NCBI GenBank assembly: GCA_963575745.1
Contig: CAUYUJ010018327.1
Coordinates: forward strand, 643,931 to 707,930
Reading direction: 5' to 3'
Source: Prorocentrum cordatum
Lineage: Eukaryota > Sar > Dinophyceae > Prorocentrales > Prorocentraceae
Length of the DNA: 64,000 nt
Under the pieces are notes generated by a model. The model saw nothing but the letters and a program-made list of their open reading frames with translations, did not search any database and was not told where the DNA came from. Shown here piece by piece: positions 2,773 through 56,869 of the stretch. Position 1 is the first letter of the stretch. Every line of letters starts with the position of its first letter. The position numbers and the translations under genes were made by a program.

Positions 2773-5130
2773 TGATGCTGCCCGGCTGCGCGCTGGCCGT
2801 GTTCTTCCTGAGCGTCTTCACGCTGCCGTGGCAGCGGCGCACGGGGGAGCTGGACGACCGGCTCCGGCGGCGCATCTACGTGGACGAGTTCACGCTTTGG
2901 GCGCGTCGCGGCCGAGACGAGTCCGGTGAGCTGGCCGAGTCGGTCGCCGGCGCGCTGGCCATCACCGCCGAGTGAGCTCGCCATGGGCTGGAGGCTCAAT
3001 CGCGATAAGAGCCGGCAATTCGCCAATAACGCTGCGCTCCGCCGATGGCTGGCGGCCCAGACCCCTCTGATTCCTGCTGGGCGCCAGTTCCGCGACCTCG
3101 GGGCGGTCGCGGCCGCCGGCCAGGTGCCCCGCTGCGCCGTCGCAGGCACCAGGGCGCGCGCCGCTGGGGCGCGGTTCGCCCGGGTCGGGCGCCCCCGTTG
3201 GAGCTCCGTTCCGCCATCGGTGCATGCTGGGCGCTTCTGCTGGCGCCGCGGCCGGGCTGCGCGGCGCGTCGTGCGGCCGCCCCCCCGCGAGGGAATTGGC
3301 CGGGCTGCGTGCGGCGGCGCGGCAGGCTGTCTGCCGCGGCGGATTCCGGGCAGCCGCCGAAGTGGTGTTCGGGGTCTTGAGTTCGACTTGGCGGTTGGGC
3401 CCGGCGGCCGTCGTCGCCCTCGCGCCCCTGTGGCAGGCGGCGAAGGCGCTCCGCAGATGGCGCTTTCCCCCGGCGCTCTGGCGGGCAACGGAGGGGGCCC
3501 GAGCAGCCGGGCGCGGCCGCGGAGCTGGGCTGGTCGCCGCGGCCGCCTGGAGCCTTGCGCAGCTCCGCCCCGGCGCCGACGTGGAGCACTGGACCGGCGT
3601 CCCAGCTAGCCCCGACGGACGGGCGGCGCCCGGCTGACCAACCGCTCCAGGCCTGGAGGCACGGGCGCGCCGGGAGGCGGCTGCTTTGGCAGGCAGACGG
3701 GTTGACTTCGCGCATGTCGCGCGCGGAATGGACCGCTGGGCGACGAGGCGGCTGCTGGAGTCGGGGGCCCTCGCGCCAGACGCGGCTGGGGCCTTGCGCG
3801 CAATGCTGTCTGGGAACGTCGTCACGGAGTCGGTGGCGGCGAAGTGGGGCAAGCCGGCCAGATGCCCGCACTGCGGCGCAGCTTGCGAGGACCGCGAGCA
3901 CCGTTTCTGGGTCTGCCCAGCCTGGAGCGCCGACAGGGCCGCCGCCTTGGCAACGGCGGGGGCCTCGAAGGCCGCGCTGCGCGCCCGGCTGCCGCCTGGC
4001 GTGGCGAACGCAGGCGTACTGCCGACGGACGTCCGGCTCGCCGCGCTCGCCGAGGGGGCCGCCAGGGCCCTGCCGCCAGCGCCGCTGCCCGCCGCCCAGT
4101 TGCCAGCGCCGCCGCAGCTGCGCCTCAGGGCGTGGACCGACGGGGCATGCGTGCGACCGAAAGACCCGCTGATGGCCCGGGCGGCCTGGGGGCTCCAGCT
4201 GGAAGGGGGGGACGCGGCACGAGCGACCACAGCGGGCCAGTGGACGTGGCGCAGACTGCGCAGCGCGCCGAGCCGTCCAGACCGTCAGCCATGCGGGGGC
4301 GCCGGTCGAGGTTATCACAGACTCCCGCTTCGTCCGCAGATGGCGTGGTGGCCCTGCGCGCCGGCGCGTGCTACCTCGATTGGGCGCATTCCGACCTCTG
4401 GGAGCGCGTCGCAGAGCACTGCCGGAGCGGCTTCCTGGCGGCGCGCTGGATCAAGGGCCACGCGGTCGCCGAGGTCGCGCGCGCCCGGGGCATGTCCGAG
4501 GAGGACAGGGCGGGCAATGCGGCCGCCGACCGCTTGGCAGGCGCGGCGGCCAGGGCCCGTTTCCCCCCGCCAGCGCTTTGCTTGGAACGCGTTTTCCAGC
4601 TGACGGCGCTGGCCACAGCGCAGCGCGTGCTCGCCGCGGTCGAGTTGGCGGCCTTGCGAGCCAATCACGAGAGCCGTGGGCCCGAGGGCCCGCGCGTGCG
4701 CCGCCTCTGGACTGCTGCGCGAGGGCCCCGCGCCGCCGGGAGGAGAGCTCGGCCGCCGCCTGCGGCGCCGGCGGCGCCAGCTCCCCCTCCTCCGCCGCCG
4801 CGCCGGCGGACCCGGGCAGCGATTGAGGCCAGCGGGGCCGTCGCGCCTCCTGCGCGAGCCGAGGCTGCGCGCGCCCTCTTCGCAGGCACCGCGTGGCACG
4901 CGCACGCCGCGGCGCAGGGCCCGGGCTGGGTAGCGTGCCTGCGCTGCGGCGCCTCGGCGGCGCGCTGGGCGCAGCTGTCGGCAAGGCCGTGTCCAGGGTG
5001 GGCGCCGGCGCTGCCCCCGCGGGCGGCTATGCTGCTGCTGACGCCGGCGGTGCGAGCTGGCGGTGGCACCGAGGCTTGGCGCGCCACCCTGGAGGCGCGG
5101 CTGCGGGCCCGGCCGGGGCCGCCAGACTAA
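2773..5130 (+). pseudogene. LINE RT palm, zinc finger and RNase H
   Basis: A decayed retrotransposon polymerase read across all three frames. Frame 3 at 2773-2975 carries the palm start (GCALAVFF) and YVDE at 2877-2888, where LINEs normally have YxDD. Frame 1 at about 2983-3100 gives GWRLNRDKSRQFANN and FRDLG. Frame 2 at 3224-3637 gives a thumb-like stretch, and frame 2 at 3686-4210 gives a zinc-binding motif (CPHCG, then H and C in EHRFWVCP near 3865-3920) and the RNase H start WTDGAC (about 4132). Frame 1 from about 4350 supplies the rest of RNase H (WIKGHA, AGNAAADRLAG). It ends with CLRCG-type cysteines and a stop at 5130. At least four frameshifts and the YVDE change make it non-functional. 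The 5' half is missing beyond the microsatellite. Confidence 0.75.
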
Positions 5131-44699: not shown

Positions 44700-46060
44700 G
44701 CGAGCGCGCACGCACGGTCCCGCTTTCGACGGCTTGGCAAGGGGAGGAAACGCAGGCAGCGCACGGGCGGCAGCGGGACCTGAGAAGATTTTTGCGTGGC
44801 GTTGCGGCGAGAGCACCACTTCGATTTCTCCCGGGCGGCCGAATTTCCCGATGATCGCGGCGAAGTCGAAACATGCGCCGCGCCGAGACAGCCGTGCCGT
44901 TTTTACACGCATGTTGCGCGGCGCTTGGAAGAGGGCGGCGTTTCGCCGGGCCCCGCTGCCGCGTGGATGTGAAGCGGTACGCGGAACATGCGCCGCGCTT
45001 GTGCGGAAACGTTTTTTCGAGGTAGTATTTGCACGGATCGCGGAGCTTCATCCATTCGCGCGCGGCCCCGCCTTCGCCTCCAGCGACTTGGCGAGTGACA
45101 TGCTCCGCGCCGAGGCGCAAGTGCGACAATCAGACAAAACGTGCACGGCACCGACGCGAGAGCGACAGTTTTTTCCGCTCGCGCGTCGACGAGTGCAATT
45201 GGTGCCACGCCGCGTTGGAGCGGGAATTCCATTTTCTTGGAAATCTTGTGCGGTGCAATAACGAAAATTATGTTTCGCATTTTCGCGCGCGATGTGTGCC
45301 CCGCCCCATTGTGTCGCAAGGGAAGGCGTCGACGTTCCATTGCATTGATTGGTAGGAAAGAAGGTTCCGGATTGACGTGCGCAAAATGATATTGAGATTG
45401 GAACGCGTTCCCACCTAGCGAACGGAAGGCGCTCGCGCGCGACCCCGCTTCCGACGACCTGGCGGGGGGGAAAGCGCAGGCCGCGCTCGGGTGGGAGCAC
45501 GACTTAGATTTCTTCTGGGCGGCCGAATTTCCGATGAGCGCGGCGAAGGTGCAGCATGCGCCGCGCCGAAATACGATTGCCACTCTAGACCAACATTTGC
45601 TCGGTGTTTGGACGAAAAGTGCATTTCGACCTGTCGCGCGGTCCCGCCGCCGTTGCCGTTGCATTGCGACTCGGCGAGCGAAGGACATACGCCGCGCCGG
45701 GGCGGGAACGCCACCTCCATGCGAGATCTGTATGGAGCCTGCGCAAGGGCCACTATTCGCCCGCTCGCGCGCGGTCCCGTCCCCAGCGACTTGGCGTGGC
45801 GATTGAAAATGCTGCACCTCGCCCCAGCGTAAGCACCATTTCCATACAGAAATTTGAGCGGCGCCGATACCTTGCGTGCAACCCCGGTGTCAACGAAGTA
45901 GTGGGTGACACCAAGCGGGATTTCAATGATGAGGGATAGTGAGCGGGGCGGAACGACATTTCGCCCTTGCGCGCGAGATGCCCGACCCGCCCCACTTCCG
46001 CCACGGATTTTGCACCGTCGACGACGGAACATCCCCGATAGGTTTTTTCGGTGGGTAGGG
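44700..46060. repeat. Degenerate ~110-bp tandem array
   Basis: Diverged repeats recognised by ACATGCGCCGCGCCGA-type words (44871, 44988, 45099, 45554, 45686), CGCGCGGxCCCGCCxCC and GACTTGGCGxG. It produces long Ala/Arg frames on the minus strand that are not genes. Confidence 0.55.
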
Positions 46061-46455: not shown

Positions 46456-46535
46456 CGTTTTTGTTGTTGGTGTTGTTGTTGCTGCTGTTGTTGTTGTTGA
46501 TGGACACGTGACCCAGTCGCCCAGGCCAGCAACCA
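46456..46535. repeat. (TTG)n with GGACACGTGACCCAGTCGCC
   Basis: TTG/CTG repeats followed by a 20-bp word whose reverse complement recurs at about 56771-56790, again next to (TTG)n. Confidence 0.8.
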
Positions 46536-47575: not shown

Positions 47576-48569
47576 CTACACGATTCCTTCACAACCCTTA
47601 TTCGATGTCCATAGGACCTTGCAGGACCGCATGGGAATCCTCAACAACCCTTATACGATTCCCATCGGACCCGATGGGATCGCATGGGATTCTTATACAA
47701 GCCCTATACGATTCTTATAGGACGGTCAACAGTTTCTATAGGACCCTATAGGATCGCACGGGCTTCCTATACAATCCCCATACGACTCATATAGGGAATC
47801 TATGCGTTGCCCACAGGGTCGTATAGGATCGCATGGGATTCCTAAACAATCCTCATCTTATTCATATAGGGTCCTACAGGATCGCATGGAATGCCTATCA
47901 ACTTCCTATAGTATTCCTATGGGGTTCTACAGGATCGCATGGGATTTCTGAGCAAATTTGGTGCGACCCCTTTAGGGTCGTACAGGATCGCATGAGACCC
48001 TTTTTATACAACCCCTATATGATCCCACAAGATCCGTATAGGATCCTATAGGATCGCGTAGGCTCCCTATAGGAACCCCAGCATGGGGTTGGGATACAAT
48101 CGCTTTAGGATTCTGAGAGGACCCTGTAGGATCGCAGGGGCTTCCCACGCAATCCTCACATTATGCCTATAAGGCCCTATAGGATCGGACGGGGGGCCGA
48201 TACAACTCCTATAGTACCCCAAGAGGATCCGATAGGATCGCCTTGGATTTCTGTGCAATCCTTGTACGACTCCTATAGGGCCCTATAGGACCGCATGGGA
48301 TTCCGATGCAATCCCGGTACGATTCCCATCGGATCCTAAAGTATCGCATGGGATCCGCATACAATCCCTATAGGATTCCCATAGGAGCATATAGGATCGC
48401 ACGGGGCCCAGATAGGATCGCATGGGGATCCTGTACAATCCCTTTACGATTCCGATCGGATCCTGCAGGGTCGCATGGGATTCTTATACGACCCTTATAC
48501 GACTCCTATAGGATCCTGCAGGATCGCATGGGATTCCGATAGGATCCCCATAGGATCCTTATAGGATCC
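47576..48569. repeat. CCTATAGGATCGCATGGG array, upstream part
   Basis: Degenerate units of about 50-75 bp built of the palindrome TCCTATAGGA, GGATCGCATGGGATTCC and CAATCCCTATACGATTCC. It stops exactly one base before the spliced leader at 48571 and resumes after 56007. Confidence 0.9.
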
Positions 48570-48570
48570 G

Positions 48571-48607
48571 TCCGTAGCCATTTTGGCTCAAGCCGTTTCG
48601 GCTCGAG
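48571..48607 (+). other. Perfect DinoSL followed by a truncated relic SL
   Basis: 48571-48592 matches all 22 positions of the published dinoflagellate spliced leader (starts TCCGTAGCCATTTTGG). 48593-48607, CCGTTTCGGCTCGAG, matches leader positions 8-22 with three transitions. This head-to-tail pattern is the hallmark of repeated trans-splicing and retroposition. It is not an SL RNA gene, because no GT donor follows the leader. Confidence 0.95.
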
Positions 48608-48899
48608 CTAGATTGTGCGAAGCTCGTGCGTGCAGCAGCGTGCCCTTTCGAAACGGCCAGGTGCCGTTGCGGGCCAGATTGGCTCCGTTCCCTTGCGTTG
48701 CTGGGTTCACCAGCGGGCAGTGCCATCATTCTCTCGACGCGGCTTCAGTTGAGCGACGTCGAAAATCGGCAAAGGCACGTCGGGCCACGGCGACGGAGGC
48801 AAGTGGTCTGCCCCAGCTCCGCGGGCGCAGGATCGTGCGAGTCTTGTTCAGCGGCCTCCTCTCGCCCCTGGCCCTCAGCGGCCTGGTCTTCCTTCTCAG

Positions 48900-50100
48900 G
48901 CCAAAGGTCGTTGGCAGTGCGAGATGTGCGGCTGCAGATGCAACGCCGGCTGCTTCGCGCGGCGCAAGCGTCGCGGATCTACGAGGGCGCCGCCAAACAG
49001 TGCGTGGCAAGGTCCGCGCGTCGGCAAGGGCTCTCAGCAGCCTGCTGGAGGGTTCAGAGGTTTCAAAGGCTGGCGCGCTGATCCCTCAGGTGCCCCGTCA
49101 GGTCATGGACCGCAGGCAGAGCCCAAGTCGCCCTTGCAAGAGCGCGAGCAAATGGCCACGTTGCGAGACAAGTTCGGGGATGCAGAAGGGGCCAAGCGCG
49201 CGCATTGCTGCTGAAGCCTTGGCCCCCCGTCCAAAGCATCAAGAGCCCTTGCAGGTCCAGCTCTCTCGCGCGCGCGGCCAGGCTCGAGCCGTTGAAAAGA
49301 GGCCGGGGGCAGCAGTGCTCAAGTTCGAGGCCATGGGGGAGCAGTTGGCTTCTCAGAAGGCTCGCGTCTCATCATTGCGCGAGGGGCTTGCGGCCGCGGA
49401 GAAGGAGCACAGCGCCCTTTTCCATCGCCTGCGCTCAGAGTGCTCTGAGGCGTCGGGTGTTCGGGCCAAGCTCGCCATCGATTATATTCTGGGCGACCCC
49501 AAGCTGGACTCATGGCTCGACCTGTCTGCGGGGCCCCCCTTCCACGTGGACAAGCTGGAGTTCGAGCTCAGCGAGGCTGACCAGAAGGAACTTGAGTCCA
49601 GGGCGGCTCAGCTCCGCGAGGGCATCGCGACCATGGCAGCCAGGTTGCTCAAGGATTCTCGAGCCAAGGTCGACGCCATCAAGTCTCAGCACTAAGCTCA
49701 CCTTCAGCGGCTTAAGGAGGAGCAGAAGAAGAGGAAGCGCAACGGTGGTGGTGCGGTGCCAGGAGCTGCCCCCTCGGTCAGCCTCGGTCAGGCAGCTGCG
49801 GCAGGGTCGGCTGGCGCGGCCGGCGCTGCGCCCGCGGCAGCGCGCAGCCCAGCGCGCGCTGCGGCCGGCGCTGGCGATGCGGACGCTGCAGGGGCCGGCG
49901 CGGATCAACGCAAGCGCGCCGGCAGGATTGCCCAGGCTGCGCCGTCGCAGGCCGCCCTCCCCGGAAGGGGCAGATCGCGTGGAGTCATGGAGCTCGTTTT
50001 CTGCGCTGCAGGCCTGTCGGCTTCCAGGGTGGGGGGGTCCCTGTTGCATTTTGCCGGTTTGTCCCCTAGCCTGCCCCCAGAGCGGCGCCCCGATGATTAG
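48900..50100 (+). pseudogene. LINE ORF1 (gag-like)
   Basis: A cysteine-rich start (CEMCGCRCNAGC, about 48918-48953, another frame) is followed in frame 1 by a coiled coil (VSSLREGLAAAEKEHSALFH, about 49365-49425) and FHVDKLEFELSEADQKELES. TAA at 49693 is followed in frame by LQRLKEEQKKRKRNGGG and an Ala-rich tail to TAG 50098. Probably an RNA-binding ORF1 protein. Start unclear because of frameshifts. A poly-T/TA-rich island (50159-50217) follows. Confidence 0.5.
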
Positions 50101-50585
50101 GCAGCCTCAGACTGCCGCATGTAGCTCGCATCTGTCTCTGGAGAAGGAGAGGCCCGCCGTTTTTTTTTTCTGTTTTTTTTTTGAAATAAAATAAATATAT
50201 ATTTTTCTTTTTTAAAAATGCCCTGGTGTCCTGACAAAGGAATGATCGGTTCGGTCGCGACGGTCGTCGCTGCTTGCTCGCGCCGATGCGGTTGCGTCGC
50301 CCTTTTCGCGTCATCTGGGCACCAGGCCAGGCAATGCCTGTTCCACAGCTGCCTGCAATTTTCGCAGCCTTCCCTGCTCTATCCGGTTGTGCAGCTCGGA
50401 GCAGGAGGAGGCAAGTCGGTCCCCGCTGTCATTGTGGTTCAGCCTTCTCTGGCAGATGTGGACGACAGGTTTGAATCCCGTCTCCGCGAGCGAAGGCTGC
50501 GCGTCTTTAGGCAGGATGAGCTAGGACAGGAGGGGGCGTTGGCACGGCCTCCTCTTCCGATCCGCCATCCTGGCTGCCCCCGCCT

Positions 50586-51540
50586 GTGCCAGATTGTCTC
50601 GACTTCAGGTTTCAGAACGTGGATGTTAGCAGCGCGGCGCATCCGCAGCCTGCGCAGACCAGACCCTCTGCCAAGCTGGTTTGTGACAAGGTTGGAGGGG
50701 TGAGACCTGATCCTAACAGCGTTGAGTTGTGTGTCATGACCATCAACTGCAACTCCTGGGGCACGATTATAGGTCTTTTAGAGAGTATCTCACACGCCCA
50801 CGTCGTTGTCTGTCAGGAGCACCGCTTGAGAGGTGAAGATACGCAGGCTGCCAGCGCGCGGCGCATCGAGAGGGGCTGGAAGTCCCTTGGGTCAGACGCG
50901 GAGAAGACTGAGGCCCACGCGTCGGCTGGAGTTGCGATCTTCGTCAAGGATTGGACTGGCGTTCGGGCGCTGCAGGGAGGAGAGATTATTCCTGGTAGAT
51001 GTCTTGCGGGGCCCATCCATCTTCCTGGCACCTCCCCTTTCGTTGTCGTATCCTCTTATCTTTACCATTCCGAAGATCTTTCAGATCGCAGCCTTGGCAC
51101 TCTGTCTCGGCTCGGCACTTTTTTCCTATATGTATTCATATATATATACACATGTATATATATATGTATGTATATATATATAAGTTGCGAGTTGCCCTTC
51201 GTGGCTGGACGGGGCCGCAAGTTCGAGCCCCCGCTCCTTGAGGATTCGGAATTTGTCAAAGAGTTGAGGGGTGTTCTTGCGGCCCCTGCCACGCGCGCCC
51301 TTTTCCCTGCAGGGGGGGCCCCCGCGTTTGATCACTTTGTCTGCTCGGGGGGGCTGGCCAAAGGAGTGAGAGAGTGCGCGGTTGATTTCCCGACGTCTCT
51401 GGCTCCCCGTAGACCTGTCGGTCTGACCTTCTACCCTCAGCCTGCCGTTTTGCAAGTTTTGGCGCTTCGCAAACCTCCGCCCCTGCGGGTCCTCGCGGGC
51501 TCGGGAACTCGACCTTGCCAGGGAGGCCCTGGACAAAGTG
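50586..51540 (+). pseudogene. LINE AP-type endonuclease domain
   Basis: Frame 3 reads LCVMTINCNSWGTI and VVVCQEHRLRGEDT (about 50728-50840; conserved Asn and Glu of the exonuclease-endonuclease-phosphatase fold), then SAGVAIFVKDWTGV and SPFVVVSSYLYHSEDLS. At 51125-51185 a (TA)n microsatellite replaces the segment that should hold the GDWN/GDFN motif. The C-terminal part follows, with APRRPVGLTF (about 51400-51430) where a catalytic His is expected. It cuts target DNA in active LINEs; here it is dead. Confidence 0.7.
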
Positions 51541-53640
51541 GCCGACCGTGATTTCTGAGGGGCACACAAGCTCTTGGGCCCTCTGTATCCGGCCTGGGCG
51601 GGCCGCGCCGAGCTGCCCAAGAAGGGTTGCGGAGGGTCGGGGCCTCAGTTGGTCCAGCGCTCAATCCTCACTGCGGGCGGCCGCTGCAAGTGCCCCGAGC
51701 AGAGAGCCAGTCGTTGGCCGGCGGCGCAGCGGCATGCCTTAGCCCTGGCTCGCCGCGAGGGCGACCAGCAGATGTCGGGTAACCTGGGTCTCTTACTGAG
51801 CAAGCCGCCGGTGCACGTCGCGCAGCGCATGGGAGCCAGGGCCCACTTTTTTTTCGAGCTGCTCGCATAGCTGGCGCCCCCAACCAGCCGGTCGATGATC
51901 TTATCGAGTTCGAGCAAGAAGTCAAGGGGGAGCTCGAGGCCGCCAGTGATTTTTTGTCGCCAAGCGGTCGCGCATGGACTGGTCTGCTTGGTGGCACGTG
52001 GGCATCGCTTCGGGGTCGAAACGGGTTCACCAGATCACCGGAGACCCCGCCCCCTGGACCAGAACCACCACGCTCCGTGCTAAAGGGAGCACCGTGGCCG
52101 ACCCCCTCTCGCTCCTTAATGCTGAAGGTGTTCGCTTCAGTGCGGCGTGGGGTCGGGGTACTGGGGCTTGAGCCTCTGGTCAGTTACTTGAGCCCCTCCC
52201 CCGTCTCAGCGCTGACGACGTCAGATCCGCCTCCAAGCGGTGCAAGCCTGGTTCCGCGGTGTCCCTCGGCGGTTTCCACTGTCGCCATTTTGCGCCCCTG
52301 GGTGATCCAGCGCTCGAATGTCTGAGCATGATGTGCGCTCCCATCGAGGCGGTGGGTTGTTTGCCGTTTCAGATTTCTGTGGTGCCCCTCGCCCTGCTCT
52401 CCAAGCTTGCTGGCGGCTACAGGCCGATTGTGGTGTTCTGCTCCTGGCACAAGGTTTTGGGCCGTCTCAGACGGCCCCTCGCTCTGCACTGGGAGCAGCA
52501 GCACCCCGGGAGGCACTGGGCCGCGGGCGAGCATCGAGGGGCGGCTGACGCTGTCTGGAGACAGGCTGTTCGGTCGGAAGCTGGTGTCAAGAGGGGGGAA
52601 GCGCCGTGCAGCGTTCTCTTCGATCTGAGGAAGTTGTATGAGCACATCTCCTTGTCTGCCTTTAAGAGAGATGCGAGCGACACCGATCCCCGTCTGTCAT
52701 TGCTCGAGTAGCCCTCTTTGCTTATCGTTGCGGGCGGTTTCTCAGCCTGGGCGGCATAGTGGAAGGCCCATGTTTTGCTTCCAGTGGGGTGGTGGCTGGA
52801 TGCAGCTTCGCTACCACTTTCATCCGAGTTCGCGGCATGGAGGGATGTGACAGTATCATTCGCCAGCCCATCCTTGAGCTGGACGTCTAAATTGACGATC
52901 TCGGCCCGTCTGCCGCTGGCCCCCCCTCGCAGGTTGTCGCCGCCATGGGGAGCTGTGCGCGGCAGTTGAAGGGTGTTGTGGAAGAAGTCTTGGGGTGCAG
53001 CGCCGCCAGGGACAAGACTTGCACCGTCGCCTCGGCTCGCTTCTTTGGTGAGCAGGTGTCTTTCCTGTTGGCCGAGCTGTCGACCCACCCTGTCCCTTCG
53101 GCTGTCAACGTAGGCGTTGACTACACGGCTGGTCGGGCGCCCAGGTCTGGAGGCAGGGGTGCCGAGCTCAAGTCTAGGCTAGCTGCTGCCGGCAGACGCA
53201 CCAAGCGTTTGCGCAGACAGAAAAAGGTGCTCAAGAGGAGCGCCATCATCAGCGCGTTCTCGGCAGGCCCTCTTGCTGGGGCGAGTTACGGGAGTGAGAT
53301 CACTGGGACCTCAGATCATGACATCCTCCTCCTTCGTCGTAAGCTGTTCAGCACCGTTCGCCTGTTTCGAAGCTTCGTTCCCTCCCCGCCTCGGCGATTC
53401 TCGGATCTGGTCCGCGTTGGAGGACCGCCTGCTCGCCCACCATCAGGTGGTCTAAAGAGATTTGGCTATGCCGGTCTGGCGCGTTTCCTTGGGCCATCGG
53501 TCTTCCTGAGCTCAGGCGGGCGCGGGCGGTTGTTTCTAGCTCGGCCTCCTGTTTGTGGCGCACCGCGGCTGGCCCTCTCACCGCCCTGCGCATGTCTCTT
53601 TCCAGGGTCGGCTGGGTTATGTCGGATTTCATGACCACCA
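51541..53640 (+). pseudogene. LINE reverse transcriptase domain
   Basis: 51541-52250 is degenerate across frames. Frame 2 from 52259 carries LLSKLAGGYRPIVVFCSWHK and the first catalytic Asp in VLFDLRKLYEHIS (about 52612-52650). Frame 1 from 52711 reads ALFAYRCGRFLSLGGI, VVAGCSFATTFIRVRG and then V-stop-IDD: the Tyr of the YIDD motif is TAA (52888-52890). Downstream (52945-53340) is thumb and connection sequence rich in basic residues. Confidence 0.7.
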
Positions 53641-53656
53641 GGGATGACAGGGGGTT

Positions 53657-54803
53657 TTGAGACCCCCTCGACCTGTTCCCCACCGCCCTTGCCAACAAAA
53701 ACCTTGCAATTATGCTTACTTCCGCATGCTTGAGAGGGATTCTGCCAGCAAAAGGGAGGTTAAGCATCGCCTGTGCTATGATATTGTTAAGGACGCCCTT
53801 TCGAGTAAAAAATTAGCGCCCTGGAGAAAGGTGGGAATCGCGCCTTCGCCGCCGAAGCTTACTTACTACGGAGCGAGCGCTCCAGCTGGGGACGCCGGCT
53901 GCCAGTTCTGCGGGGAGCCAGACAGCATTGTCCACAGGCTTTGGAAGTGTCAGGCGGATTGCATTGTGTCTATGCGCAATTCCCCGGTGGTGCCAGAAGA
54001 CATTGCGGCGGCGCTCGAGGTTGCAGGTGGCGATCGCGCGACCCTCCTTCCCTTGATCTCGGGGGCTTTCGCCCATCCCGCCGACGCCTACTCGAGGCCC
54101 TCTACTGATGCGGATGACGGTCCTGTCATTGCGTGGCACGACACTGATCAGGTTTCCCCTCTTGGAGGCCCCCTCCCCTGGACAGGCAGTTTTGGGTGAC
54201 CTCTTCATTGGCGGCTCGTGCACGAGGCGCCCCATTCGCGAGTTGAGCAGAGCCGCTTCGCGTGTGGTTATGGTAGACAAGACTGGTAGGTGTGTTACCG
54301 AATTCAGAGCTCCCGTCTGGGCCCCCTATCCCTAGACTCCACAGAGCGCGGAGCTCTCGGCCTACACGTGGGCCCACATGCTCAGAATTCCAGGACGCAC
54401 ACGTGCCTGGTCTGACAGTAACACTGTAGTCAAGCTAGCCTGCCTGCCGAAAGATGTGCGCCTCTCGGACAAGCGGGTGTATGCTGGCGCTTTCCTCAAA
54501 TTTTATCATACCTCCGCCCCCCTCCTTCCTGCGTCTAAGGTTGCTGCGCACAAGGGCATGGATGAGCAGGGCATCTCCAGTGAAGAGAGTTCGCTTGGGC
54601 AGGGCAACTCCCGGGCCGACGCGCGAGCTAAACGCGCCGTTGGATTGCATGCCAGCTCGGCTGCTGCCAATGAGGCCGTCGATCAGCTTATCCTGCCGCT
54701 GTGGGGCCCCATCGACTTGTCAGGAGTTGAGTTGGTCAAGGCCCCCTCTGCCGCCTCCTTCACCTCATGCCTGGAGACCGTGGTCTGGAGCGTGGAGGTG
54801 TGA
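53657..54803 (+). pseudogene. LINE zinc finger and RNase H
   Basis: Frame 2 gives CQFCGEPDSIVHRLWKC (about 53909-53960), the C-x2-C...H-x4-C finger between RT and RNase H. Frame 3 gives GDLFIGGSCTRRPIRELSRA (about 54195-54255), where the expected DGSC is GGSC, so the first catalytic Asp is lost. TAG at 54333 interrupts, followed by TPQSAELSAYTWAHML, AWSDSNTVVKLACLPKDVRL and GNSRADARAKRAVGL. Stop TGA 54801. Confidence 0.7.
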
Positions 54804-55324
54804 GGTTTGTTTGAGGGGCACCAGGGCCTTGTTGGAGCCCCCCTCCTGGTTCGCGCATTGGTCGCAGCAGGCTGGATGAGGGCCGCCTCGCGGCGCTTCA
54901 GCATCGGGCCATAGCTTTCGACTGTTCGGGCCGCAGTGTAATTTTTTTATGCGCGCGGTGCATTTGTTATTCCTCGGGGCAGAGGTTCGAGATCTTTCTA
55001 TCCGATGCGTTGGCCAGCCGACGAGAACCGCCAGGTCAGGCTGGTAAATCTCGCGCAATCGAGGCCTCCACCCACAGTATAGCAAGCGAAAGGTGCGAGT
55101 TCACGCCGGCAATCTCACGGGACTTTTCGGCCCCGCGGACGGAGTCCGAGCCGGGCAGCAGGAAGTGGAGGTGGAGGAGGCCCCCGCCCCCTCGGTCGAG
55201 CCCCCCCCCCTGTCCTCGGAGGCGGCGCCAGGCAGCGCTAGCTCTGCGCCTGCCTGCCGCGGCCCAGGGCACGGGGGGGGCCCGACCTCCCTGACAGTCG
55301 CCCAGCGTCGCGCCGCCCTTCCTT
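54804..55324. other. LINE 3' region
   Basis: Non-coding as far as can be seen, between the RNase H stop and the tandem duplication. Confidence 0.5.
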
Positions 55325-55965
55325 GTCTCTTGGCTTGAGCTCATGTGGCAGGTTCGATTTGTTTTTTTTTGTTTGTGGCGCCTGCGCGGCGGTGCTGGTT
55401 GCGCTGCCGGCCCTGGAACTCGGGCCTTGGAGTCCCGCCGCGCAGGCGTTGCTGGCCGTCCTTTTCATTGCCTCGCGCTGCATTCGCCCTTGGTTGCACG
55501 GCTGCGGGGTTTCTAGCCCCCGCGGCGACAGTTGCTCGATGGCTCAGGCATTGCCCCCGCGCCCCTGGTTGCACGGATGCGGGGAGTTGTTCCTGCGGTG
55601 GCAGTTGCTCAGGGGCTGAGGTGCTGGATCTCCAGTCGCCTGCCCTACTCGCTTGGAGTCTGTGGTTCGCGCGGCAGGCTCGATCTGGGGCCAGCTGCGT
55701 TCTGCGCGGCGGTGCTGGTTACGCAGCCAGCCCTGAAACTCGGGCCATGGAGTTTCGTCGTGCAGGTGCTTCTGGCCGTCCTTTTCATTGCCCTGAGCTG
55801 CTTCCGACCCTCTTGGCACGGCCGTGGGGCGATGTCTCCCCTGCGGTGACCGTTGCTCAGGGGCGCCCTCTCTTTTGCATTGTTTTTGCGCCCCCTTTGG
55901 CCCTGGCGCGCGCCGTGGCGGAATTTTCCGTTTACTGGCGCGCTTCCCCAGGCGCGGGGTGCCTC
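55325..55965. repeat. ~325-bp tandem duplication in the LINE 3' region
   Basis: Two copies (about 55325-55645 and 55655-55960) sharing TGCGCGGCGGTGCTGGTT, CTGGCCGTCCTTTTCATTGC and GGTTGCACGG/GGCACGGCCG words in order. Similar to tandemly repeated 3' ends of other LINEs. Confidence 0.7.
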
Positions 55966-56006
55966 GCTAAACGCGGCGGACAGAGCGTGGAGCTGAAGAA
56001 AGATCA

Positions 56007-56575
56007 TTATAGGACCCTACAGGATCGCATGGGCCCCCTATACAATCCCCGCGTGCGATTCCCATAAGGTTCTACTGGACGGCATGGGAGCCCCATGCAA
56101 TCCCTATACGATTCCTATCGGATCCTACAGGAATCACATGGGATCCCTACAGAATCCCCGCAGGATCCTATAGGATCCCGATCGGATCTTATAGGATCGC
56201 ATGGGATCCCCACAGAATCCTTGTAGAATCCTATATGTTCGCATGGGATTTCTACAGAATCGGTATAGGACCCATAGGTTCCTATAGGATCGCATGGGAT
56301 TCCTATACAATCCTTGTTACGTTTTCTATCGGGTCCTTCAGGGTCGCATGGGGTTCCCATACAATCCCTATACGATTCCTACAGGATCCTACAATCTCGC
56401 ATGCGATCAGTATAGAACCCCGCAGGATCCGATAGGATCCGAAAAGGATCCTGTAGGATCGCATCGGATCCCCATCGGACCCCATAGGATCCCCAAAGGA
56501 TCCCATAGGATCCCAACCGGATCCCTATAGGATTTTGATAGGATTCTTCAGGATTCCGATCGGACCGATAGATTC
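56007..56575. repeat. CCTATAGGATCGCATGGG array, downstream part
   Basis: Same repeat family as 47576-48569, resuming after the LINE. Confidence 0.9.
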
Positions 56576-56869
56576 TGGAGCGTCGCTGGTGCAGACATGG
56601 AAACATCGCACGAAGGAGGAATGCACACCCTTAAGCAAGCGAAGTTACAGCGGAGCGAGGAATGGAACCCCAGGTTGTTGGCTGCTGGTTGCCAGGGGGG
56701 GGGTGCTTACCCCGGGGGGCAAGGTCGCGGGTTGTCCTTGAAGGACCAGCGTTGACCAAGTTTCCTGGTGAACGGGCGACTGGGTCACGTGTCAACCTTG
56801 TTGTTGTCGTTGTTGTTGTTGGTGTTGTTGGTGTTGTTGTTGTTGAATTCTCACAGCTGAAGAATATTT
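56576..56869. repeat. Spacer with (TTG)n
   Basis: Short spacer, GGCGACTGGGTCACGTGTC (about 56771) and (TTG)n at 56800-56845, followed by GAATTCTCAC, the start of block F1. Confidence 0.7.

Follow-up and report, generated by a model that had tools for sequence, protein, structure and literature searches.

DinoSL-DinoRL tagged retrogenes of dinoflagellates were reportedly described by Slamovits and Keeling in 2008. In the accessible parts of published reports, dinoflagellate mRNAs are described as leader-bearing in general (PMC6050394, PMC10235124), and leader recovery in transcript data is given as 13.5% and 50.4% for Polarella (PMC7245778) and as 4.95% for P. cordatum. The relic is the leader minus its first seven nucleotides, and a 37-nt DinoSL-DinoRL tandem marks a retrogene (PMC12014239). 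According to the available text of one review, two Symbiodinium genomes have 22.3% and 23.2% of their genes in this class, EST sets about 25%, and the TTT(G) of the integrated leader is proposed as a promoter (PMC6050394). Here we describe a LINE that begins with a leader-plus-relic tandem, found in a window of 64,000 nucleotides from Prorocentrum cordatum (contig CAUYUJ010018327.1, positions 643,931 to 707,930, forward strand). The tandem is the known retrogene mark, carried here by a mobile element rather than by a host gene. Our literature search, which covered mostly papers open without subscription and the accessible parts of their text, found no report of DinoSL forming the 5' end of a LINE in a dinoflagellate.

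The DinoSL-DinoRL retrogenes (Song et al. 2018, PMC6050394; PMC12014239) resemble the locus in the 22-nt leader followed by a 15-nt relic, in re-splicing at GTAG and, as far as the accessible text goes, in that the number of leaders counts rounds of retroposition. They differ in that the sequence concerned here is a LINE in satellite DNA rather than a host gene, and in that our tandem is seen in genomic DNA. Leaders joined to genomic retrotransposons are also reported from flatworms (PMC12582326, PMC5832876). A flatworm survey discarded 597 candidate SL loci linked to mobile elements, for the most part of the LTR and LINE types; its authors suggested integration of trans-spliced retrotransposon RNA (PMC12582326); the authors of the S. 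mansoni study allow chimeric assembly as an alternative (PMC5832876). These loci come from another phylum, involve an unrelated leader and consist of partial leaders or merged annotations, and the available portions of both reports do not mention nested relics, unlike what is found at the LINE in the window (PMC12582326, PMC5832876).

Three further systems are instructive, each as presented in the accessible part of its report. Of 26 endogenous viral RdRp ORFs in Symbiodinium, 6 have DinoSL no more than 500 bp away, and the proximity of DinoSL to non-host sequence in endogenous dinoRNAV is read as retroposition; there, however, viral sequence was copied, and LINEs are suggested as agents and not as the copied RNA (PMC10235124). 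In Hydra, host trans-splicing likewise acts on transposon RNA, but the evidence consists of RNA reads and not of integrated 5' ends (PMC12220107). The L1Tc element of T. cruzi is a LINE whose host lineage generally uses SL trans-splicing and transcribes polycistronically, yet the element makes its 5' end through the Pr77 promoter and ribozyme, and its transcripts are unspliced (PMC8190864).

The features of the locus are collected in the table.

Features of the satellite-LINE-satellite block, with positions in the window and the basis of each assignment
Feature	Position	Strand	Basis
Left satellite, TRF period 53, AGGATCC-rich, start approximate	47591-48569	.	TRF
Possible left target-site duplication GATCCTTATAGGATCC	48554-48569	+	14/16 to 56002-56017
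Single G, array/leader junction	48570	+	sequence
Perfect DinoSL, 22 nt, 5' end of insertion	48571-48592	+	match 22/22
GTAG acceptor within leader	48574-48577	+	sequence; seven-nt rule in the accessible text of PMC12014239
DinoSL relic (DinoRL), 15 nt	48593-48607	+	12/15 in published register
Possible third, older relic CTAGATTGTGCGAAG	48608-48622	+	8/15 in register, ends AAG; weak
ORF1-like region, charged	48753-50097	+	assigned by position
AT-rich spacer, 6.9% GC, between ORF1 and ORF2 regions	50160-50217	+	composition
ORF2, APE-type endonuclease remains	50700-51467	+	tblastn with P0001, pairwise alignment
ORF2, reverse transcriptase remains	51962-53326	+	tblastn with P0001, motifs
ORF2, Cys/His zinc-finger-like region CQFCGEPDSIVHRLWKC	53648-54190	+	P0001 alignment; motif by eye
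ORF2, probable RNase H remains	54198-54800	+	alignment with Pfam-assigned RNase H of P0001
3' untranslated part, internal direct repeats	54804-56001	+	blastn; end approximate
Right satellite, end approximate	56002-56580	.	blastn-alignable to left array

The DinoSL consensus DCCGTAGCCATTTTGGCTCAAG is present in genomic DNA 5' of the LINE body, where positions 48571-48592 of the plus strand read TCCGTAGCCATTTTGGCTCAAG and agree with it at 22 of 22 positions, the degenerate D being a T. The last 21 nt of the leader match the 64 kb only once on both strands at up to three mismatches, and 100 shuffles of the window gave a mean of 0.00 matches. A leader shared with the surrounding array had been named as a way in which the sequence-only reading could fail; no second leader was found in the window at up to three mismatches. 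The same reading had claimed a perfect 22-nt DinoSL, a LINE that starts one base past the satellite and a 15-nt relic that carries three transitions, and each of these was borne out: TRF ends the satellite at 48569, the leader starts at 48571, and the relic follows at 48593-48607 in the published register. The boundary is thus observed directly. The intervening G at 48570 may be an extra base derived from a cap, or may belong to the array, and is ambiguous because the array holds GATCCG elsewhere. The AAG that ends the leader is followed by CC without a GT donor, and therefore the stretch is not an SL RNA gene.

The 15 nucleotides that directly abut the leader, CCGTTTCGGCTCGAG, agree with the relic CCATTTTGGCTCAAG at 12 positions, and the differences are an A>G, a T>C and a second A>G transition; the box of the relic reads TTTC. 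Like the leader itself, the register is an observation, and it is the one that splicing at GTAG leaves. At up to three mismatches 1.81 relic matches are expected per window, with three or more in 26 of 100 shuffles, so the match itself is not rare and the unlikely part is its place directly behind the leader. Three matches at 12/15 or better occur in the window (the leader itself, 48593-48607 and 45306-45320); that score is reached at 2.3e-5 of positions on both strands, those three included. A chance relic was rejected, since position and register are exact and so few positions score as well. The leader carries 0 differences in 22 positions and the relic 3 in 15, a split with a probability of 0.059 if the two were of equal age; at about 0.06, this argument weakly suggests that the relic is older than the leader. 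Behind it, the score of the possible third relic (8/15) is equalled at 2.1% of element positions, and a 10/15 leader-like match lies out of register about 80 nt downstream, at 48674. For Alexandrium ESTs, the accessible part of PMC3229502 accepts third relics with identities of 50-63%.

Satellite resumes at about 56002, which gives an inserted body of about 7.43 kb with the leader as its 5' terminus. TRF found a period of 53 in the left array and periods of 10, 11, 21 and 63 in the right one, and blastn between the arrays returned 27 alignments (24 in direct and 3 in inverse orientation) at 65-83% identity. An element extent of 48610-54803 had been proposed earlier; the LINE does lie there, but the insertion appears to continue beyond 54803, up to about 56001. 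The best pair that abuts the leader as a candidate target-site duplication, 48554-48569 with 56002-56017, agrees at 14 of 16 bp. This score was equalled or beaten by 7.8% of 3000 random satellite placements, and the candidate is therefore not relied on. At its 3' end, the border of which is approximate, the insertion reads GAGCTGAAGAAA, and no poly(A) tail or clear LINE tail was found there.

The body itself was characterized through protein and nucleotide comparisons. When the ORF2 pieces were joined with X at the breaks and used as the query, a single homologue was found among 8000 scored candidates, a 2021-aa protein from ENA (P0001), at E 1.1e-22 and with 25% identity over 29% of the query. 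The RT pieces alone found no homologue among 8000 scored candidates, and one homologue was returned by one of three protein searches of 8000 candidates each. In Pfam, P0001 matches RNase H at E 5.3e-9 and RVT_1 only at E 0.053, below the cut-off; none of nine translated window pieces had a Pfam match at E 0.1, and no solved structure was found for P0001 at E 0.1. The protein resembles the window's element in having APE-like, RT and RNase H regions in the same order, and differs in being distant and in forming one long protein.

Three regions of ORF2 were compared with P0001 individually. Reverse transcriptase remains at 51962-52654 align by tblastn with 26% identity (E 3e-18), and by eye we take an LFDL motif, and a stop followed by IDDL at the YxDD position, to be RT motifs. 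For the endonuclease region, tblastn aligned 50805-51368 at E 0.016. A (TA)n stretch (51127-51182, TRF) interrupts this region just upstream of the site that aligns to GLDAQ of P0001, where the Asp is absent from the window, and Pfam matched neither the window's endonuclease pieces nor the corresponding part of P0001. The RNase H region shows SAEL, SDSN, KVAAH and GNSRADA, has Gly at the position of the first Asp and ends at a stop at 54801-54803; tblastn of P0001 gave no match in this region, and a MAFFT alignment with the Pfam-assigned RNase H of P0001 has motifs in common. In the pairwise alignment, the window and P0001 have APE, zinc-finger and RNase H motifs in common. Among viral contigs, 24 stretches fit the pattern of the window's APE piece and one fits that of P0001, and tblastn confirmed none of them.

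The ORF1-like region is broken by at least one frameshift near 49200 and by one stop at 49693-49695. No homologue of it was found at E 0.001 among 8000 scored protein candidates, and the ORF1 label is consequently by position only. The spacer that follows contains long T runs in an element of 62% GC; it may be a pyrimidine tract that serves the separate processing of ORF2, or it may be an old poly(A/T) junction. Long terminal repeats are absent: a blastn search of the window with the element as query (E 1e-3) returned the element itself and three internal repeat pairs in the 3' untranslated part, and no second LINE copy. The best of these pairs (55382-55537 and 55702-55858) is direct, 79% identical and 320 bp apart, and the two weaker pairs lie near 55382-55858.

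Together, these comparisons indicate a degenerate LINE. The assignment of the reverse transcriptase is solid at the level of sequence homology, and the element probably also encodes remains of an APE endonuclease and of an RNase H; this grading follows from the P0001 comparisons, with E 3e-18 for the RT, E 0.016 for the endonuclease and shared motifs in place of a tblastn match for the RNase H. Judged by its coding sequence the copy is dead, since ORF2 lies in 11 pieces with borders chosen by hand, (TA)n sits in the endonuclease, a stop precedes IDDL and the RNase H has Asp replaced by Gly.

Based on these results, we consider it very probable that this one copy is a retrocopy of a trans-spliced LINE RNA that was given a new leader through the GTAG of an earlier one, over at least two rounds. 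The leader is unique in the window, the relic is in register, the leader starts one base after the array, the satellite resumes beyond the body and the body has RT homology, and on these points the explanation rests. A full-length dinoflagellate LINE RNA would receive DinoSL through host trans-splicing, would be reverse-transcribed to its very 5' end and inserted into the satellite array, and the leader would stay as the 5' end of the new copy. We infer the RNA, its cap and the mechanism of insertion, and re-splicing at the old GTAG would account for the relic. The source copy would have been transcribed from upstream of its old leader, and the spliceosome would take the GTAG in that leader as a 3' acceptor, drop the first seven nucleotides and add a fresh 22-nt leader. 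Such an acceptor would be portable, travelling with any leader-bearing copy, and the 5' end should grow by 15 nt with each such round.

The 15-nt relic implies that the source copy of the template itself began with DinoSL, hence the minimum of two rounds; for at least one of these, the tandem suggests that transcription began upstream of the older leader. Differences confined to the relic fit this explanation, as they are expected if the relic is older than the leader. Copying from a trans-spliced RNA at least twice had been proposed by the sequence-only reading, and the published DinoSL-DinoRL tandem of 22 plus 15 nt lends it support. Two published observations count against this explanation, as far as the accessible text of each source goes: few retrogenes carry multiple DinoSLs (PMC6050394), and among Polarella full-length transcripts a single relic was seen in just 0.68% and 2.31% (PMC7245778). 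Among our own results, the nine window pieces that Pfam left unmatched, the homologue returned by one protein search out of three, the missing poly(A) or LINE tail, the candidate duplication that does not exceed the satellite background and the weak age argument also weigh against it.

Within the retrocopy explanation two readings of how the RNA acquired its leader can be separated, and as both are parts of that explanation their probabilities overlap. It is quite possible, if somewhat short of probable, that host transcription produced an RNA from a long-inactive LINE as it would from a host gene, that trans-splicing acted on this RNA at the old leader, and that the machinery of another element then copied it in trans. 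Dinoflagellate mRNAs are described as leader-bearing in general, and a host-transcribed LINE RNA could thus gain a leader passively. The leader matches at 22 of 22 positions but the relic at only 12 of 15, and the ORFs are broken, so that body and relic could predate the last copying; a dead LINE RNA copied in trans would give the same picture of a pristine leader, a worn relic and a broken body, and fits as well. The accessible parts of the literature provide a setting for such an event. Host retrogenes account for 22-23% of genes in the two Symbiodinium genomes (PMC6050394), LINEs of Symbiodiniaceae and Suessiales are described as non-active remnants (PMC10235124), and LTR Ty1/copia elements are the review's preferred agents of retroposition (PMC6050394). 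However, a poly(A) tail, maybe expected of an mRNA copied in trans, is absent, and a perfect 22-mer survives modest post-insertion decay with a probability of 0.32 at 5% divergence and of 0.098 at 10%. If the copied LINE was already dead, the leader is uninformative on how live LINEs replicate.

Alternatively, and more tentatively, the LINE family may regularly make its 5' end through host trans-splicing, which we regard as rather unlikely. The sequence-only reading had likewise suggested that the LINE uses trans-splicing for capping or translation, which from one dead copy is no more than a possibility. Read-through transcripts would be trimmed to the start of the element and capped by leader addition, and an internal promoter would be unneeded; in a variant, the TTTT box of the leader would act as the promoter once integrated, as has been proposed for retrogenes (PMC6050394 and PMC12014239, in their available text). 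The leader at the exact 5' end, together with a second, older leader, is what such regular use would leave, and GTAG makes the acceptor portable according to the accessible text of PMC12014239. Partial reports from animals point the same way: in Hydra the leader is found on 30.9% and 29.7% of TE Iso-Seq reads, compared with 48.1% of the non-TE reads (PMC12220107), and flatworm partial leaders are mainly associated with LTR and LINE elements (PMC12582326). Yet if every cycle added a leader at the old GTAG, several relics would be stacked, and a single clear one is present. The promoter variant meets the further difficulty, following an argument in the accessible part of PMC6050394, that a start inside the old leader leaves no tandem, whereas a tandem is present here. 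The L1Tc precedent from T. cruzi also speaks against regular use, since this LINE makes unspliced RNA from its own 5' promoter and ribozyme (PMC8190864, available portion). We regard as doubtful the family-wide rule in which 5' ends are made by trans-splicing, the portable GTAG replaces an internal promoter and the stack of relics counts rounds.

The distinction matters for how these elements persist. A LINE promoter must sit inside the transcribed region or else be lost with each copy, and where mRNAs generally share one leader an element could leave the making of its 5' end to the host. A LINE that starts with a leader and a nested older leader makes a host-made 5' end testable, as leaders can be counted on full-length copies. 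The locus is relevant, too, to the question of which RNAs are copied by the retroposition machinery of dinoflagellates. Furthermore, retrogenes are counted by their DinoSL relics, and transposon copies that have not been masked could inflate those counts.

Outside the retrocopy explanation, it is improbable that the relic is no relic and that the native 5' end of the LINE merely resembles the leader at 12 of 15 positions, with one leader addition. The stretch is only 15 nt long with three differences, a similarity of which 1.81 instances are expected per window, and an out-of-register 10/15 match lies nearby at 48674; even so, the place and register are exactly those left by GTAG splicing, 2.3e-5 of window positions are as good and the published signature is identical. 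Less credible still is a leader that belongs to the satellite or to an SL RNA gene adjoining the LINE and is unlinked to it: DinoSL and DinoSL-5S tandem arrays are reported in the available part of PMC8045281, but a satellite origin was rejected because the window holds no other leader within three mismatches, and an SL RNA gene was rejected because AAG lacks a GT donor (the SL-gene-like leader on contig JAKUNN010000063.1 does have GT after it, in GTACGC), no snRNA body was seen downstream and the window has no Rfam match, Rfam coverage of dinoflagellate SL RNA being assumed.

DinoSL was also sought on other contigs through an exact 21-nt scan of viral and genome contigs, a set that may omit close relatives of the window's genome. 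One viral contig, with two matches, and two genome contigs were found (L001, L002 and L003 below). By eye, no LINE was seen in the whole of L001, in the first 600 of the 3011 bases of L002 or in positions 3400-4500 of the 5151 of L003. L001 (IMGVR_UViG_3300045993_001077), an AT-rich contig filed as viral, carries DinoSL at 2746-2766 and 2893-2913 on the minus strand. It encodes a 975-aa glycosyltransferase-like ORF, and one DinoSL lies about 45 nt upstream of a 254-aa ORF (1936-2700) that is GC-richer by eye. Pfam was run on the four ORFs of at least 150 aa, and the best match of the 254-aa ORF was RcsC at E 0.001, below the cut-off. The latter ORF looks like a captured dinoflagellate cDNA with its leader, or else a chimeric assembly.

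The two genome contigs are filed under different Dehalococcoidia MAGs. L003 (JAKUNN010000063.1) has DinoSL at 4334-4354 on the minus strand, followed by GTACGC, and sequence that resembles eukaryotic 18S rDNA by eye lies about 600 nt downstream of it; the contig is apparently dinoflagellate contamination with an SL RNA gene in an rDNA spacer. L002 (CAJXDJ010000191.1) begins with an (ATC)n run, which DinoSL follows immediately at 32-52 on the plus strand; CC comes next. This arrangement looks like a leader-bearing retrocopy inserted in a microsatellite.

Finally, the satellite-LINE-satellite block of the window lies between the two copies of a perfect 20-nt inverted repeat, GACACGTGACCCAGTCGCCC, at 46503-46522 and 56774-56793. 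These copies are 10.25 kb apart, each beside a GTT/TTG microsatellite, and the arrangement occurred in 0 of 100 shuffles, for a pattern chosen after it had been seen. The two copies may be the ends of a larger unit.
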